This document shows positions 11,192 to 18,190 of a stretch of DNA of 60,470 bases, piece after piece. The stretch is from contig CAIUMP010000018.1 in assembly GCA_903900335.1 (NCBI GenBank), positions 1 to 60,470 of the forward strand, written 5' to 3'. Position 1 is the first letter of the stretch, and each line of letters starts with the position of its first letter. This DNA is from an uncultured Ignavibacteriota bacterium. GTDB lineage: Bacteria > Bacteroidota > Ignavibacteria > Palsa-1295. The position numbers were made by a program, and so were the translations under genes. The notes under the pieces are model-generated. The model did no database searches. It was not told the origin of the DNA and was given only the letters and a program-made list of their open reading frames with translations.

Positions 11192-14100
11192 TCACTCCGT
11201 CTGAAAATCCAACCGCTCGATCGTCTCGGCGATGAGCGAGGGGACGCCGAAGTTCTCGGCGATCTTGCCCGTTACGCGAAGTGCGACGGCGATGGAGAGC
11301 GTGAGATGATAGGTCTGGAATAGCTCCGGCCAGATCACGACATCGGCCATGCCGAATTCATCGGCGATGTTGAGGAGGCACATGCTTTGGCCGCGCTTTG
11401 TCCGCACGAATTTCGCGGCGGCGATGTGGCCAACCAGCGTTGTGCGCTTGCCGATGTACTTTCGCATTTCGGTTGTCGTGATCGCGCCTTCGCGGTACGG
11501 TGCAAGAAAATTGCTCGGGTAATCGGTGACGGAATAGCCGAGGCACTCCCGCTCCTTTTGGAAGATATAGGGCCTACCGTATTCGGACAGATGCGAGAGA
11601 TCGAAGTGAAATGCCTCGCGTGGAAAATCGAGTGGGATGGTTTGATTCTTCGCTAGGCGTCGGCTTTTGATATAGAGCGAGAATTTCACATTTGCGACGG
11701 GCCGCGATGCCTCCAGCGTGTCGCACGCGCCGATGGCGATGAGCAGCTTTCCTTCTTCGAGGCCCATGCCGCTGCGTTCGGCGAAGTCCTCGATACTCGT
11801 GTAACGTCCGTGCGAATTCCGTTCAGCGAGCATGTACTCGATCACCGAAGATGTCACACCCTTCATTCCGGCAAAGCCCAGTCGTATCACGCCATCTGCT
11901 TCGACGGAGTGCTCCATCCGGCTTTTGTTGACATCCGGCAACTTGACCGTGCAACCCAATCGCTTTGCTTCATCGATGTACTCCTGATGCCGATAGAAAC
12001 CGCCGTAATTGTTGAGAACGCTGCACAAGAATTCTGTCGGATAATAAACCTTGAGCCACGCTTCCTGAAAAGAGAGAACCGCGTAGCTGGCAGAGTGCGC
12101 TTTGCAAAAAGAGTAGCCCGAAAAGCTGGAAATCTGCCGCCAAATCTCCTCGGCTACATCCTGCTTGATCTGATTCTTCGTCCAACATCCGGCGATAAAT
12201 TCTTTGTGAATTTGCTCGATCTCCTCCGGCGAACGCCCTTTGCCGGACATCGCGCGCCGCAGAATATCTGCCCTACCGCGCGAGATGCCCGCCAGCTCAT
12301 GCACGACCGTTAGCACATCCTCCTGATAGACCATGATGCCATACGTCTCGGACATCAGCTCCCCCATCAGCGGATGAATGTGATTGCGCCGCGTGGGGTC
12401 GTGATGGCGACGAATAAACTCATCCATCATACCGGACTGTGCTACGCCAGGACGAATGACGGAGCTTGCCGCAGTGAGATTCTCGAAGGTATCGGTCTTG
12501 AGCTTCCGCAGCAATCCGATCATCGCCGGGGACTCGATATAGAAGCAGCCCTTCGTCCCGCCTTCTCGTATGATTGACTTGGTGCGTTCGTCGTTGAAGG
12601 CAATGTAATAATCCTCGATAGGCGGACGGCTGCCATGGCGCTCCGTTACCATGCGCATGGTGTCCCAGAAGGTGCCGAGCCCGCGTGTGGCGAGCACATC
12701 GAGCTTGACGAGCTTCCAATCATCGGCGCTGTGCATATCCTGCTGCATGATGAAGATGTCGTTCATCGAGCGCTGCATGGCGGAGAAGTTCGTGATCGGT
12801 TCGTCGAGCAGGATAAGTCCGCCGGAGTGCATCGCAAGATGGCGCGGCATCCCGCGCAGGCGGTCAACGTAGGATAGCCACTCTTTCACGTCCACATGTT
12901 CGCCGGTGTCGTTACGGGGCTTCTTCTCGCCCACAATATCCGCGTATCTACCGCTTGCGAGCTTTGCACGCAGCGCCGACATTTCGGACTCCGAATATCC
13001 CAGTGCCTTGCCGACTTCGCGAATCGAGCCGCGATCTCGAAACGTCTGGATGGAGCAGAGCATCGCGCCATTCGCCGTTCCGTTCTGCGGCTTGCCGTAT
13101 TTCTCCAGCATGTACTCGATAACGGTGTAGCGGTCGGTCCAGGAGAAGTCGATGTCGAAATCGGGCGGCATTTTTCGTTCGAGATTCAGAAATCGCTCGA
13201 ACTGCAGATTGTACTTTACCGGATCGACATTCGAAATCCCCAGCAAATACGCAATGAACGAATTCGCCCCCGAGCCGCGGCCCATGTGTGGGAATCCTCG
13301 GCTCGTCGCGAAGTTGATCATGTCCCAGACTGCCAGATAATAACTCGCGACGTTCATCTTCGCGATGATCTCCATTTCCAGCGTGAATCTGTTGCGATAG
13401 GTGCTACCGGACAAACCCATATCCTGTAATCGCGCCTCCGCTATCGCCGTCAGGTAGCGCAGAGGCTCCATGTTGCATTGGAAGGTCGCGAACTTCGAGC
13501 GGGAAACATCGAACTCGACATTACATGCTTCGGCAATCTTTTCTGCGGTTTGGAATGCGACCGGGTCTATATCCCGCAGCATGTGGCGCATTGCCGCCTC
13601 GGACGCGAAATACTGCGATGGCTCGGCGCATTCATTGCGAGGCAGCGTGCCGATGGTCGTGTTCGTATCAATTGCACGGAGCATGCGGTGCAATGTATGG
13701 TCTGTCTCGTGTGCGAAGCAGGTGTTGTTCGTCGCGACGAATCGGAAATTTCGATTCGCCTGTATCCGTTTGAGCTTCGCCCATTCATGGCGCTCGGCGT
13801 GAATCAGCTCGATAAACAAATGGTGCCTATGGCGCGGAGCAAGTGCTTCGAGAATGGATGCAGTTGAGGAAAGTATAAACACATTCTCACTCAACTCCTG
13901 CAACAACGGCGCGAGCGATTGCACTGTACTCTTCTCGCTCAATCGCAATTGCTCGGTCATCCATGGAGCGCGAATCTCTTCCTCCACACCTCGTATATCC
14001 GCATTTTCTATGACATCTTCGACTGTCAGCTTCGGCTTGATCTGTGGGATGGCTTCCAGCACGCGCGTCAGTGTGGCGCAGATCTCCGCATAACCGGCGT

Positions 14101-14338
14101 TGTTCTTCGCGAGCAGCACGGCTCGCTCCGTCCGCGTTTTTAGCTCGACACCCATGATCGGTTTTATCCCGTTGGCCTTCGCGGATTTGTAGAACGGTAT
14201 GACGCCCGTGACACTGTTCGTGTCCGTCATTGCGACACTACTCATCCCTTGCTTTTGTGCGAGCAGGGGAAGTTGCTCCGCAGGGATGAGTCCACGGAGG
14301 AAGGAATACTGCGAATGGGCGTGTAAGTGGCTAAACAT
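11192..14338 (-). CDS. dnaE2: Error-prone DNA polymerase III alpha subunit DnaE2
   Basis: This C-family DNA polymerase is used for damage-induced, mutagenic synthesis. The PHP domain opens with HLHAHSQYSFLRG and has AMTDTNSVTGVIPFY. The palm has GRGSGANSFIAYLLGI and the catalytic aspartates in PDFDIDF near residue 392. The fingers region has MVYQEDVLTV and RRAMSGKGR, and the thumb region has SYAVLSFQEAWLKVYYP. An OB domain near the end has GKRTTLVGHIAAAKFVRTKRG. At 1048 residues it has the DnaE2 length and lacks the long tail of replicative DnaE1. Its ATG overlaps the upstream stop by 8 nt, so it is translationally coupled to the DUF72-like gene. Confidence 0.93.
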   Translation of the reverse strand: MFSHLHAHSQYSFLRGLIPAEQLPLLAQKQGMSSVAMTDTNSVTGVIPFYKSAKANGIKPIMGVELKTRTERAVLLAKNNAGYAEICATLTRVLEAIPQIKPKLTVEDVIENADIRGVEEEIRAPWMTEQLRLSEKSTVQSLAPLLQELSENVFILSSTASILEALAPRHRHHLFIELIHAERHEWAKLKRIQANRNFRFVATNNTCFAHETDHTLHRMLRAIDTNTTIGTLPRNECAEPSQYFASEAAMRHMLRDIDPVAFQTAEKIAEACNVEFDVSRSKFATFQCNMEPLRYLTAIAEARLQDMGLSGSTYRNRFTLEMEIIAKMNVASYYLAVWDMINFATSRGFPHMGRGSGANSFIAYLLGISNVDPVKYNLQFERFLNLERKMPPDFDIDFSWTDRYTVIEYMLEKYGKPQNGTANGAMLCSIQTFRDRGSIREVGKALGYSESEMSALRAKLASGRYADIVGEKKPRNDTGEHVDVKEWLSYVDRLRGMPRHLAMHSGGLILLDEPITNFSAMQRSMNDIFIMQQDMHSADDWKLVKLDVLATRGLGTFWDTMRMVTERHGSRPPIEDYYIAFNDERTKSIIREGGTKGCFYIESPAMIGLLRKLKTDTFENLTAASSVIRPGVAQSGMMDEFIRRHHDPTRRNHIHPLMGELMSETYGIMVYQEDVLTVVHELAGISRGRADILRRAMSGKGRSPEEIEQIHKEFIAGCWTKNQIKQDVAEEIWRQISSFSGYSFCKAHSASYAVLSFQEAWLKVYYPTEFLCSVLNNYGGFYRHQEYIDEAKRLGCTVKLPDVNKSRMEHSVEADGVIRLGFAGMKGVTSSVIEYMLAERNSHGRYTSIEDFAERSGMGLEEGKLLIAIGACDTLEASRPVANVKFSLYIKSRRLAKNQTIPLDFPREAFHFDLSHLSEYGRPYIFQKERECLGYSVTDYPSNFLAPYREGAITTTEMRKYIGKRTTLVGHIAAAKFVRTKRGQSMCLLNIADEFGMADVVIWPELFQTYHLTLSIAVALRVTGKIAENFGVPSLIAETIERLDFQTE

Positions 14339-15251
14339 TTTTCTTGAGCATAGCGGCGAATACTTCTGCTAAGTCGATGGCGTTAGCCAGCGCCCGCAGG
14401 GGCGGATCGTTGGCGAGTGTAATGTAGAGCGGACGCTCGGGAGTGAGCGCGCTTGCAAATTCAAGAAGCTCCTTTTGCGTATAACTATACTGATGTTTGG
14501 TCGCCGTATCGAACCACCCCGCCGCATTGCGCCCGAGCATTCGCACATGTGCGCCATGACGCGAACCCACCACGCGCCGTTGCACGATACCGGGAAGCAG
14601 CGGTCCATCCCAGCCGATGGGAAGCATTCCACGTCCCGAGAGCGCGGCCCATAGCTCCTGCCTTCTCCCCTCTTTGTTCCACGTCCAGTGTTCGAACTCG
14701 ATGTGGAGTGGTTGGCCGTCTAAGCAGTCGATAAATCGGAGCAGCGTCTCCCGCGTTTCGGGACGATAAGCGATCCTCTCGTGCAGCACCAGCACAAGCG
14801 AGGACTTAAATGGCAGCTTATTATGCACGATCACCTGCAACCATTGCGTCCAGCGCCCGGCATCGAACATCGCGGCTGTGAGTTGCTCCATGATAATGCG
14901 GAACGTTACATGGCGAAAGCGGAATTTCGTCAGCCGCAGCAGTTCTTCCTCGATGGATGTCAGGAAGAGCAACGGGATTTCGAGCGTCGGGAAGGTCTCG
15001 ACGTAGCGGATCAATGCCTCACTCTTTCGCTCGAACTGTTCAGCGAGATCGTGAACGGCGCTGCTCTGCGTACCGATGAGGATGTGATGACGCTCTGCGA
15101 GAGTTTTCAGAAGCGGAGCTTGCTTCCTCATGCGCTCTATCAGCGGTGCAATATCCGCCGAGTGTTCATCCGCTGGCGTGTGCTTTCGTAGTATAGATCT
15201 ATTCGAGGCACGCTGTGTCGCAGCATCCTCGACAACTTTTGCGAAACTCAT
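14331..15251 (-). CDS. Divergent DUF72 (YecE-like) protein in the ImuA position
   Basis: The protein has 306 residues from the ATG at 15251, 13 nt after the Y-family polymerase gene. It reads as a diverged DUF72 TIM-barrel: ILIGTQ near residue 57 (family iriGts), YVETFPTLEIPLLFLTS (family YA.rF..vEin.tFY..P), LHIEFEHWTW near residue 182 (family vEfRh.sW), HVRMLGRN with YSYTQKELLEFA near 233-255, and LYITLANDPPLRALANAIDL near 275 (family vyvyfNN...g.A..nA..l). It occupies the slot held by ImuA in imuA-imuB-dnaE2 cassettes but shows no RecA/SulA-like motifs. The function is unknown; a role with the two flanking polymerases is inferred from the coupling. An N-terminal extension of about 50 residues precedes the barrel. 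Confidence 0.75.
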   Translation of the reverse strand: MSFAKVVEDAATQRASNRSILRKHTPADEHSADIAPLIERMRKQAPLLKTLAERHHILIGTQSSAVHDLAEQFERKSEALIRYVETFPTLEIPLLFLTSIEEELLRLTKFRFRHVTFRIIMEQLTAAMFDAGRWTQWLQVIVHNKLPFKSSLVLVLHERIAYRPETRETLLRFIDCLDGQPLHIEFEHWTWNKEGRRQELWAALSGRGMLPIGWDGPLLPGIVQRRVVGSRHGAHVRMLGRNAAGWFDTATKHQYSYTQKELLEFASALTPERPLYITLANDPPLRALANAIDLAEVFAAMLKKNV

Positions 15252-15264
15252 GACCGTGTATCTG

Positions 15265-16473
15265 TTATGAAAGTAGAGTTGATGCATAGCGGACGATCCG
15301 CGAGCCGTACTTGCTGCGCAGATCATCCATTGTTGTGTAGATCGTGCTGGACCGGGCCTGGTCTTCAGCGAAGAGGTATCCGGGCCGGAGATCTTCAAGC
15401 AGATGACTCGCCTCGACGCCCAGCAACCGGACGCGCACGCGGCGAGTCCAGAGTTGCTTGAAGAGCTTAAATGCGGCTTGATAGATCGCCTGATCGGCGT
15501 TCGTGAAGCTGACGCCGATCGTTTTCGTCACCGTCTGGAAATCGGCGTAGCGGAGTTTGACGGTGATCTTTTCCGTCATCACTTTTGCTTCGCGAAGATC
15601 CTGCGCCAAACGTGACGAGAGCGAGAGTATGGTGCCGACAAGCTGTTCGATGTCGAGCGTGTCCTCGCCAAAAGTCTGCTCGCGCGAGTATCGCTGCTGC
15701 TCATGAACCGGTGTGACCGGCGAATGATCGATACCGCGTGAGCGATTCGCTAACGAGCGGCCTTCTTTGCCATATTGCCGTTCGAGGATTTGCACGGGCG
15801 TCTTCGCGATGTCCCCAATGCGCCGCAGGCCGATCTCCAGCAACTCCGACTCCCGCACAGGCCCGATACCCGGCAGTGCGCGAATAGGAAACGGCGCAAG
15901 GAATGACGCCTCCTCTCTATTACGGACCTGATAACTCCGCTCCTGCTCCTGCTTTTTCGCCTGCTGCGTCGTCGCAACTTTCGCGACCAGCTTGTTCGAA
16001 GCCACGCCGAGCGAGAGCGGCAATTGCGTCTCGCCACGAACCTCCGCGCGGATCTTCCGCGCCCACTCGTAGGTGTCGCCTTTGAGGCGCTCGCAGTGGG
16101 ATAGATCGAGATAAAACTCATCGACCGAGGACTTCTCCACAAGCGGCGCAAGCTCCTGCATCATCTGCGTAACGAGGCGCGAGTATTCGGCATACGCAAG
16201 ATAATGTCCGCGCAGATAGACCGCATCGGGGCAGAGCCGATAGGCCGTGCGAATCGGCATCGCCGAGTGAATGCCGTATCGTCGTGCCTCGTAGGAGCAT
16301 CCAGCAACGACCCCGCGGCCACCCGGCTCACCACCGACGATGACCGGCCGCTGCTTTAGCTTTGGGTCGAGCAACCGCTCCACCGACACGAAGAAGGTGT
16401 CGAGATCGAGATGAACAATGGATGACCGATCATCCGTATGCGGTAGTATTCCTATTGAATTGGTGCCCATCAT
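15265..16473 (-). CDS. dinB: Y-family DNA polymerase (DinB/Pol IV-like)
   Basis: This is a translesion polymerase of 402 residues. The first catalytic carboxylate motif IVHLDLDTFFVSVE is near residue 20, YEARRYGIHSAMP follows, and the second catalytic site SSVDEFYLDLS is near residue 114, so the active site looks intact, unlike inactive ImuB. The helix-hairpin-helix stretch ALPGIGP is near residue 205, and a little-finger domain follows. I start at ATG 16473; an upstream in-frame TTG (16494) overlaps TTGTATTATG, which looks more like a promoter. It heads the three-gene cassette with the DUF72-like gene and dnaE2. I could not see a LexA box or a clear clamp-binding motif. Confidence 0.92.
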   Translation of the reverse strand: MMGTNSIGILPHTDDRSSIVHLDLDTFFVSVERLLDPKLKQRPVIVGGEPGGRGVVAGCSYEARRYGIHSAMPIRTAYRLCPDAVYLRGHYLAYAEYSRLVTQMMQELAPLVEKSSVDEFYLDLSHCERLKGDTYEWARKIRAEVRGETQLPLSLGVASNKLVAKVATTQQAKKQEQERSYQVRNREEASFLAPFPIRALPGIGPVRESELLEIGLRRIGDIAKTPVQILERQYGKEGRSLANRSRGIDHSPVTPVHEQQRYSREQTFGEDTLDIEQLVGTILSLSSRLAQDLREAKVMTEKITVKLRYADFQTVTKTIGVSFTNADQAIYQAAFKLFKQLWTRRVRVRLLGVEASHLLEDLRPGYLFAEDQARSSTIYTTMDDLRSKYGSRIVRYASTLLS

Positions 16474-16656
16474 AGCACTAACAACATAATACAATCTGAG
16501 AGCCAGTTCTGAAATTCAACTTTATCTCCCACAATGACTGATCGGGTGGGCTAAATGAGGCGGTGGCTGAGCGGAAAAAGTGCGTCCGCATGCAAGAAGA
16601 AACTCTCCACTATCCCCTCACCGTTAGCCTGGGAGAGGATAGGATTCTTAAGAGAA

Positions 16657-16926
16657 ATGCCTGAAATTAGTAGATTCTTCGGAATAGTGATAGGAATGTT
16701 CTGGGAAGCAGATGTTCGGCATCACGGGCCACACTTTCATGTTCGCTATCAGGAGTATAAAGCATCGTTCGGTCTGGAGCCGATTGAACTGCTCGCAGGT
16801 TCATTGCCAACACGACAGCGAAGGTTCGTGGAGGCATGGGCCGAGCTACATCACGATGAACTGAAAAAAGACTGGGTAATGTTGATGAACGACGAAAATC
16901 CGGATCCAATAAAACCACTGGAATGA
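16657..16926 (+). CDS. DUF4160 family protein
   Basis: This is a small protein of 89 residues beginning MPEISRFFGIVIGMFW, with the family's HGPHFHVRYQEYKASF and LPTRQRRFVEAWAELHHDEL. DUF4160 proteins are usually encoded next to DUF2442 proteins, and the pair has been suggested to be a toxin-antitoxin-like module; that role is inference. The stop overlaps the start of the DUF2442 gene as ATGA. The start at 16657 is chosen because the family begins at this methionine. Confidence 0.88.
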   Translation: MPEISRFFGIVIGMFWEADVRHHGPHFHVRYQEYKASFGLEPIELLAGSLPTRQRRFVEAWAELHHDELKKDWVMLMNDENPDPIKPLE

Positions 16927-17243
16927 CAGAAAAAGGACACGAATTACACGCAATCCACGAAGCCGAGGTGGTTGGCGAACATACCCTTCGTCTCGTATTT
17001 GAAGATGAAACCGTACGTATCGTGGACTTGAGCCCGGTGCTCATGGGGAAAAGGTTTGGCCCGCTTCGCGATCCAGAATTCTTCAAGCAAGTAACACTGA
17101 ATACCGATTTCGAAACCGTGCAGTGGCCGAACGGAGCAGACTTCGATCCAGAGACGCTGTACTACTGGGATCGATACCTTCCAGCATGGAAAAGAATGGC
17201 CGAGCGATGGAGGAAGGCAGAAAAAGAATCCGTGGCGGCGTGA
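16923..17243 (+). CDS. DUF2442 family protein
   Basis: This 106-residue protein has the DUF2442 core: HTLRLVFEDETVRIVDLSPVL, FGPLRDPEFFKQVTLN, and TVQWPNGADFDPETLYYW. It is translationally coupled to the DUF4160 gene by a 4-nt overlap. DUF2442 is generally treated as the putative antitoxin or DNA-binding partner. The C-terminal tail of about 20 residues (RMAERWRKAEKESVAA) is charged and extends past the usual core. Confidence 0.9.
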   Translation: MTEKGHELHAIHEAEVVGEHTLRLVFEDETVRIVDLSPVLMGKRFGPLRDPEFFKQVTLNTDFETVQWPNGADFDPETLYYWDRYLPAWKRMAERWRKAEKESVAA

Positions 17244-17290: not shown

Positions 17291-18190
17291 ATGAAATTCG
17301 GTCACCTCGAAGACATCAGTTCCATCGACTTCTCCCTCCCGTCCGATCACTCGATAACTGCGAAAGTTCTCAGCAACAAACCCGCCAGGCAAGTGAAGGT
17401 ATATGCGGGATGTCCCGTCTGGGCGGACAAAGGATTTATGGGAAGAATCTATCCGAAGGGCACAAAGGCAAAGGACTATCTGAAGGTGTATGCGACGCAG
17501 TTCAATGCAATCGAGCTGAATGCGACAGGTTATCAGATACCAACAAAGGAGGAGGTTCGAGCCTGGACAAGTGTAGTCCCAAAAGGATTTGTATTCTGTC
17601 CCAAAATTTCGCAGCCGATAAGCCACGTTAGGCCGCTCGCTAAGGACAGAGAAGCGCTCAACCGCTTCTGCGATGCGATGCATCAATTTGGCAAGCATCT
17701 CGGCACAGTATTCCTCCAACTGCATCCTTCTTTCGCACCTGCTCGCTTCGATGACTTGCTGAACTTCTTCGACATCTGGGACACTTCCCTACCCCTTCAC
17801 ATCGAACTTCGTCATCCGGACTGGTTCTCCGATCCGAAACTTCAAACCAAACTCTTCGCAGAAATGCGGAAGCGGAAAATTGGCACTGTCATCACCGACA
17901 CCGCTGGCCGCCGAGATGCTGTACACCAAGGGCTAACGACGCGTTCGGCATTCATCCGATTCGATGGTAATGATCTGCATAGGACGGACCTCACACGCAT
18001 TGACGAATGGGCCGCTCACATTAAGAATTGGATCGATCACGGATTGCGAGAGGTCTATTTCTTCCCACATACAACTGCGAAATACCTGAATCCCGAATTA
18101 TCGAATTACTTCCTGATGCGCATCAATCAACTCCACGGTTCAAGCTACACACTCGCCACGATAACAGAGAAACGGAATTCCGCCGATTAG
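17291..18190 (+). CDS. DUF72 (YecE-like) TIM-barrel protein
   Basis: This is a canonical DUF72 protein of 299 residues. The first strand VYAGCPVWADKGFMGRIYP is near residues 36-54, the signature YATQFNAIELNATGYQIPT is near 67-85, FLQLHPSFAP is near 140, HIELRHPDWF is near 166, and AFIRFDGND is near 218. The biochemical function of the family is not established. It lies 47 nt after the DUF4160/DUF2442 pair and about 2 kb from the divergent DUF72-like gene in the polymerase cassette. Its stop is 4 nt from that of the convergent trmO. Confidence 0.92.
   Translation: MKFGHLEDISSIDFSLPSDHSITAKVLSNKPARQVKVYAGCPVWADKGFMGRIYPKGTKAKDYLKVYATQFNAIELNATGYQIPTKEEVRAWTSVVPKGFVFCPKISQPISHVRPLAKDREALNRFCDAMHQFGKHLGTVFLQLHPSFAPARFDDLLNFFDIWDTSLPLHIELRHPDWFSDPKLQTKLFAEMRKRKIGTVITDTAGRRDAVHQGLTTRSAFIRFDGNDLHRTDLTRIDEWAAHIKNWIDHGLREVYFFPHTTAKYLNPELSNYFLMRINQLHGSSYTLATITEKRNSAD

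Follow-up and report, generated by a model that had tools for sequence, protein, structure and literature searches.

A DUF72-derived protein encoded between a Y-family polymerase and DnaE2 in a putative mutagenesis cassette of an uncultured Ignavibacteriota bacterium

In the classical mutagenesis cassette, imuA-imuB-dnaE2, the partners of the error-prone polymerase DnaE2, that is, ImuA and ImuB, are themselves degenerate. PDB entries for DUF72 (YecE) proteins, in turn, go back to 2004, with the family still lacking, to my knowledge, an assigned function.

Another DnaE2-based arrangement, the DnaE2B-PolY-RecA module of Bacteroidetes, has been described computationally (PMC6511836, there as the Cellulophaga type; PMC12926913), with no DUF72 component found among its published parts (PMC6511836, PMC12926913). 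DUF72 genes have been seen, on the other side, to be enriched near archaeal and bacterial polB2, the DUF72 structure being close to that of UV-damage endonuclease (PMC11791011). A structure-based study of one DUF72 protein, TM1631, has proposed that it is DNA binding and endonuclease-like, with a phosphate/DNA-binding pocket consisting of Asn44, Tyr47, Tyr48, Lys72, Gln114, Arg145, and Arg191, and has predicted as well a homodimer surface (PMC3828134). No report of a link between DUF72 and DnaE2/PolY cassettes was found in the open-access journal literature.

Considered here is a locus which resembles both DnaE2-based arrangements but which carries a DUF72-derived gene between those for its two polymerases. 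It was found in what is referred to below as the window, i.e., the whole 60,470-nucleotide stretch of DNA that was analysed. Three minus-strand genes are present (Table 1), with a gap of 13 nt between dinB and the middle gene and an overlap of 8 nt between the middle gene and dnaE2, as the initial annotation had it from the same open reading frames. That annotation took these genes to be a mutagenesis-type cassette, which has been borne out, with an SOS-like box present as well at dinB. It also took the cassette to be unusual, which is true in part. The DUF72-derived component, that is, is what is new here, whereas an active PolY along with DnaE2 but without ImuA/ImuB had already been described in Bacteroidetes (PMC6511836, PMC12926913).

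Table 1. Features of the cassette and of its surroundings within the window
Feature	Position	Strand	Remarks
dnaE2, error-prone C-family polymerase	11192..14338	-	1048 aa
Middle protein P0001	14331..15251	-	306 aa; ATG start; DUF72-derived
dinB-type Y-family DNA polymerase (PolY)	15265..16473	-	402 aa; operon's first gene (predicted operon)
Putative LexA box AGTGCTATGATGGGCACC	16462..16479	-	Overlaps dinB start codon; found by comparison
DUF4160-DUF2442 pair	16555-17243	+	Between cassette and canonical DUF72 gene
Canonical DUF72 gene (P0004)	17291-18190	+	PF01904 7.2e-47; divergent from operon, upstream

Polymerases, LexA-like box, and described mutasomes

PolY matches the Pfam families IMS (1.2e-46) and IMS_C (3.6e-24). 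It looks to be active, as had been suggested initially, since both catalytic motifs are present, HLDLDTFF and SSVDEFYLD, though its clamp motif, RPGYLF, is degenerate. As this is the only Y-family gene of the genome, ImuB is absent, i.e., the sole Y-family protein keeps its catalytic motifs rather than being an inactive one. A simple pairwise alignment of the C-terminal tail of PolY with RecA is weak (p 0.03), indeed too weak to be decisive, and therefore an HMM of Bacteroidetes PolY tails was used. Against that HMM the tail scores 18–19 bits (E 1.4e-5), and in this sense is RecA-NT-like, versus 4.5–5.9 bits for the best shuffled tail, 12–14 bits for the genome's own RecA N-terminus, and about 22 bits for the PolYs of the Desulfopila and Atribacteria cassettes described below. 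The genome supplies one RecA match to PF00154, a model which could miss a diverged ImuA.

DnaE2 matches Pfam DNA_pol3_alpha (1.6e-63) as well as finger, PHP, and HHH_6 domains, and has the catalytic motifs PDFDIDF and KLDVLAT. Phylogenetically it clusters with Bacteroidetes DnaE2 (SH-aLRT 96), apart from the DnaE2 of an imuA-imuB-dnaE2 cassette. Its assignment to the DnaE2B branch is by way of that clustering, rather than by way of the published DnaE2B group labels.

The putative LexA box at dinB has the form RGTGC-N8-GCACC, which is seen also upstream of lexA (AGTGCTTTGACGGGCACC) and of recA (GGTGCCGAAAACGGCACC), and at dinB of one related genome, G008. There are 13 distinct sites of this form within the 4.0-Mb genome, with a reversed control pattern at least as frequent, so that genome-wide enrichment of the box was not found and the evidence consists instead of where the box is placed. 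Since the motif was derived from the very regions in which it was then tested, a predicted LexA box common to dinB, recA, and lexA is suggestive only. The three cassette genes would, on that suggestion, make up one operon under LexA control.

Like the DnaE2B-PolY-RecA module, the window has an active-looking PolY with a RecA-NT-like tail, found beside dnaE2 and in the absence of ImuB, along with a DnaE2 which clusters with that of Bacteroidetes. Unlike that module, it has an extra, DUF72-derived gene between the two polymerases. The cassette fits, that is, with its being a variant of the DnaE2B-PolY-RecA mutasome. With ImuA-ImuB-DnaE2 it shares a three-gene, probably LexA-controlled layout, dnaE2 coming last, and a partner which is a seemingly degenerate enzyme. 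It differs, however, in having neither a RecA-like ImuA in the slot nor an inactive ImuB, and in that its degenerate partner comes from DUF72. A role for the cassette in anti-phage defence was considered separately and ruled out, none of the cassette proteins having a match in PADLOC, and carriage of P0001 by phages was ruled out as well, with 0 matches among 50,697 phage records.

Descent, pocket, and divergence of the middle protein

On its own, P0001 matches no Pfam or NCBIfam family at E values of up to 1. It is the exception, however, among the five known members of what can be described as the middle family, the other four of which match PF01904 (best, 7.7e-17). When that five-member family is compared, by hhalign, with 13 DUF72 proteins of the window's class, the result is 99.9% (E 8.6e-33, over 246 columns), versus a null 0.1% with ImuA/RecA, and the middle-family profile finds TM1631 (1vpq) at 2.4e-22. 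The AlphaFold model of P0001 (pLDDT 73.6, rising to 81.3 with a deeper alignment) consists of a predicted N-terminal helical extension, at about residues 1–55, followed by a TIM barrel. In Foldseek searches DUF72 crystal structures come out on top (E 1e-9), and structural comparison gives Z 22.2 versus 1vpq/1vpy and, for 1vpq, an rmsd of 3.0 over 238 residues. The middle protein thus is homologous to DUF72, sharing with DUF72/YecE proteins (PF01904; TM1631, EF0366) both full-length homology and fold. An ImuA or RecA fold is ruled out. Both DUF72/YecE descent and the absence of an ImuA-like protein from this slot had been proposed initially, and HMM-HMM comparison and structure prediction of the 306-residue protein have agreed on both.

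What sets the middle proteins apart from other DUF72/YecE proteins, besides P0001 being missed by the Pfam model, is their pocket. Pocket residues were mapped, using TM1631 numbering, onto 45 DUF72 and DUF72-derived proteins. None of the five middle proteins retains Asn44, the Tyr pair, Lys72, His79, or Gln114, and in each of them Arg145 has been replaced by Glu and His193 by Leu. Outside of the middle family, no aligned DUF72 lacks Lys72 or Arg145, all of those linked to cassettes included, and Asn44, His79, and Gln114 persist in nearly all. The expectation of a degenerate YecE-like TIM barrel therefore stands. It is because of these losses that I use here the term 'DUF72-derived' rather than treating the middle protein as a functional DUF72, and for the same reason the protein is probably a dead enzyme retained as a subunit, with catalysis presumably lost along with the pocket.

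From a different perspective, the middle protein might still be an enzyme, i.e., a lesion or AP-site nuclease with a rebuilt pocket, one which prepares the template or instead removes the lesion following bypass. Eight residues are in fact kept in 5/5 middle proteins, Glu42, Glu143, His146, Trp149, Asp169, Arg191, Gly194, and Arg195, and of these E42, E143, H146, D169, and R191 may be counted in favour of such an enzyme. So too may the proposal that TM1631 is DNA binding and endonuclease-like (PMC3828134), as well as the nearest fold following DUF72 itself, which is UV-damage endonuclease (UVDE). At Z 14.2 the latter is tied with other TIM barrels, and at about 11% identity the resemblance is of fold only, family membership not being claimed. 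The uniform loss of Asn44, Lys72, His79, and Gln114, along with the substitutions of Arg145 and His193, nevertheless argues against a rebuilt enzyme, as does the rapid evolution of the middle family, and this reading is unlikely.

Among 61 related genomes searched, one (G002) has an orthologue of P0001, at 54% identity, and three others (G001, G003, and G008) have weak matches, at 25–30%. In all four the PolY-middle-dnaE2 order is repeated, with gaps or overlaps of no more than 8 nt. As this repetition is seen despite the middle proteins being only 23–54% identical, the order is more than chance. Middle-family scores of at least 340 bits are found in only 5 of 294 genomes of the class, all from one family, with the next-best scorers, at 124 bits, being canonical DUF72 proteins. 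Conservation of gene order in relatives, as had been at issue initially, is thus seen in five genomes and, with an intact DUF72, in other phyla as well.

Pairwise identities over these five genomes are 53–85% for PolY and 53–78% for DnaE2, and middle proteins are only 23–25% identical in pairs for which the PolYs are 53–63% identical. The middle family, that is, is evolving faster than its polymerase partners. In the DUF72 tree it is monophyletic (100/99), on a long stem, and its sister group consists of DUF72 proteins from the window's class (91/82). Fast divergence, pocket loss, and narrow distribution would be consistent as well with a mere passenger, i.e., a metabolic TIM-barrel gene which has landed in the operon and is now drifting. 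Drift, though, is hard to square with frames which have remained open, and coupling which has remained tight, in five divergent genomes, with 28 invariant columns, or with DUF72 having turned up independently in the SOS cassettes of other phyla. A passenger consequently is quite improbable, and a retained, non-catalytic subunit is the reading which is preferred here.

The initial annotation had missed an intact, canonical DUF72 gene, that of P0004, which is found upstream of the cassette. P0004 keeps the pocket residues N44, K72, H79, Q114, R145, and R191, and its link to the operon is uncertain. DUF72-like genes adjoin the cassette also in G001 and G003. These neighbours, together with the homodimer surface predicted for TM1631 (PMC3828134), raise the possibility that the middle protein is the regulatory partner, within a heterodimer, of a canonical DUF72 encoded elsewhere (e.g., P0004), acting upon that protein more than upon the polymerases. 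The neighbouring genes, however, belong to two distant subfamilies of the DUF72 tree, none is seen within the shorter flanks available for G002 and G008, and it is with dinB and dnaE2 that the middle gene is translationally coupled. Such a heterodimer seems rather improbable.

As separate observations, a P0004-like DUF72 gene, along with that for an SRAP (SOS-associated peptidase), is divergent from polY-dnaE2 in Mucilaginibacter gossypiicola (L078 3440-6991), and the DUF4160-DUF2442 pair of the window resembles a toxin-antitoxin-like pair while having no PADLOC match.

DUF72 genes beside mutagenesis genes elsewhere

Among the matches listed for DnaE loci of named genomes, DUF72 adjoins PolY/dnaE2 in Desulfopila, in the order lexA-DUF72-iPolY-dnaE2, and in Candidatus Atribacteria, in the order lexA-DUF72-dnaE2-polY. 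Over 297 genomes of Thermodesulfobacteriota, all six DUF72 genes of at least 53% identity are flanked by lexA and iPolY, with dnaE2 following in some of these lexA-DUF72-iPolY(-dnaE2) cassettes. Ten distant DUF72 genes (36–40%) lack lexA, polY, or dnaE2 alongside, by which a general DUF72-SOS linkage within that phylum is ruled out. In Atribacterota 18/18 DUF72 orthologues (at least 63%) adjoin lexA and/or dnaE2 or polY, contig ends permitting. Within the window's own class, DUF72 adjoins polY in five genomes of one family (f19), with lexA visible in two, and is found near polY and a split dnaE2 in G167 and G263.

Plasmids, too, can carry such arrangements. On Do28_1 of Desulfosarcina ovata the order is lexA-DUF72-iPolY-dnaE2 (L176 6304-12079), and as this plasmid is mobilizable the cassette can probably move horizontally. 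On p1 of Paraburkholderia acidisoli, DUF72 follows imuA-imuB-dnaE2 by 10 nt (L177 1740-7951), and on a plasmid of Paraburkholderia sprentiae imuA is about 4 kb from DUF72. In the other plasmid neighbourhoods of DUF72 that were examined, a polymerase cassette does not adjoin it directly.

A general DUF72-dnaE2 linkage in Bacteroidota is ruled out. In Bacteroidia, that is, the two genes usually are far apart, going by coordinates among the matches listed, and most DnaE2-PolY pairs, again among the matches listed, have no DUF72 nearby.

Cassette DUF72 genes are scattered over several separate places of the DUF72 tree, and therefore the association has arisen or persisted more than once. Outside of the middle family, these cassette-linked proteins are residue-intact, and their role for that reason may be enzymatic, unlike that of the degenerate middle protein. 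As with the PolB2 mutasome neighbourhoods (PMC11791011), DUF72 is found near polymerase genes, though there the polymerase is of another family and DUF72 is an operon neighbour, whereas in the window it has given rise to a translationally coupled middle gene.

Various other arrangements were encountered. In G009 a dnaE2 fragment and a DUF72-like gene from a different subfamily converge and overlap (L060 7812-10545), a similar DUF72-like gene is downstream of iPolY-dnaE2 in Nitrospira (L085 8932-9828), and in G709 two DUF72 genes are in tandem, 9 nt apart (L236 1411-3285). The window's class in addition includes three families, f10, f11, and f19, in which DnaE2 is split into two genes without an intein (L161 12211-13923 + 16050-17747; L162 8009-9703 + 9766-11445; L058 5383-7038 + 9861-11555; L059 8861-10618 + 16592-18352), with split C-halves also in G255, G275, G049, G031, and G040. 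The first half (PHP and palm, about 550–586 aa) ends just past the third catalytic Asp and is near polY in 3/4 loci, while the second (fingers to OB, about 565–585 aa) often is on the opposite strand.

A proposed role, and its meaning

The proposal that follows draws upon what has been computed, which is gene order, homology, fold, pocket-residue loss, the RecA-NT-like tail, the box sequence, and recurrence. Upon DNA damage, PolY, active and with a RecA-binding tail, along with DnaE2 would be produced together with the middle protein, and the operon would in this way yield a mutasome for translesion synthesis, one of the DnaE2B-PolY-RecA type. The middle protein descends from a DUF72 TIM barrel, of a fold close to that of UV-damage endonuclease, whose putative active site is gone. 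Most likely it would serve as a non-catalytic subunit, whether structural or instead lesion- or DNA-holding, which ties DnaE2 to PolY-RecA, and in this way would do the job that ImuA/ImuB do in the classical cassette. That it may be a subunit or a loader had been suggested by the initial annotation as well. A physical complex with the polymerases would be expected, as too would a role at lesions. That the middle protein is a dead-enzyme subunit, holding damaged DNA or bridging DnaE2 and PolY-RecA, is given a little better than an even chance. Counting against it are the restriction of the middle family to five genomes of a single family, the Bacteroidia DnaE2-PolY pairs, most of which do without a DUF72 close by among the matches listed, and the intact pockets of cassette-linked DUF72 proteins in other bacteria.

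The repeated placement of DUF72 in LexA-headed PolY/DnaE2 cassettes, seen in no fewer than four phyla and on several separate branches of the DUF72 tree, ties DUF72 to damage-induced mutagenesis. More tentatively, and with somewhat less than an even chance of being correct, DUF72 may be a general accessory of SOS translesion polymerases, one which lexA-PolY-DnaE2 cassettes have recruited several times and independently, with the probable task of recognising lesions in a UVDE-like manner. A copy in the window's lineage would then have lost catalysis to become a fixed structural subunit, that is, a new class of mutasome component.

The recurrence of DUF72 beside mutagenesis genes in unrelated bacteria supplies a testable lead on the function of this family. 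The window represents a case in which a DUF72-derived protein has kept the slot but lost the pocket, paralleling ImuA, ImuB, and iRadA. Such a pocket-less middle protein suggests that mutasomes tend to recycle worn-out repair proteins as scaffolds.
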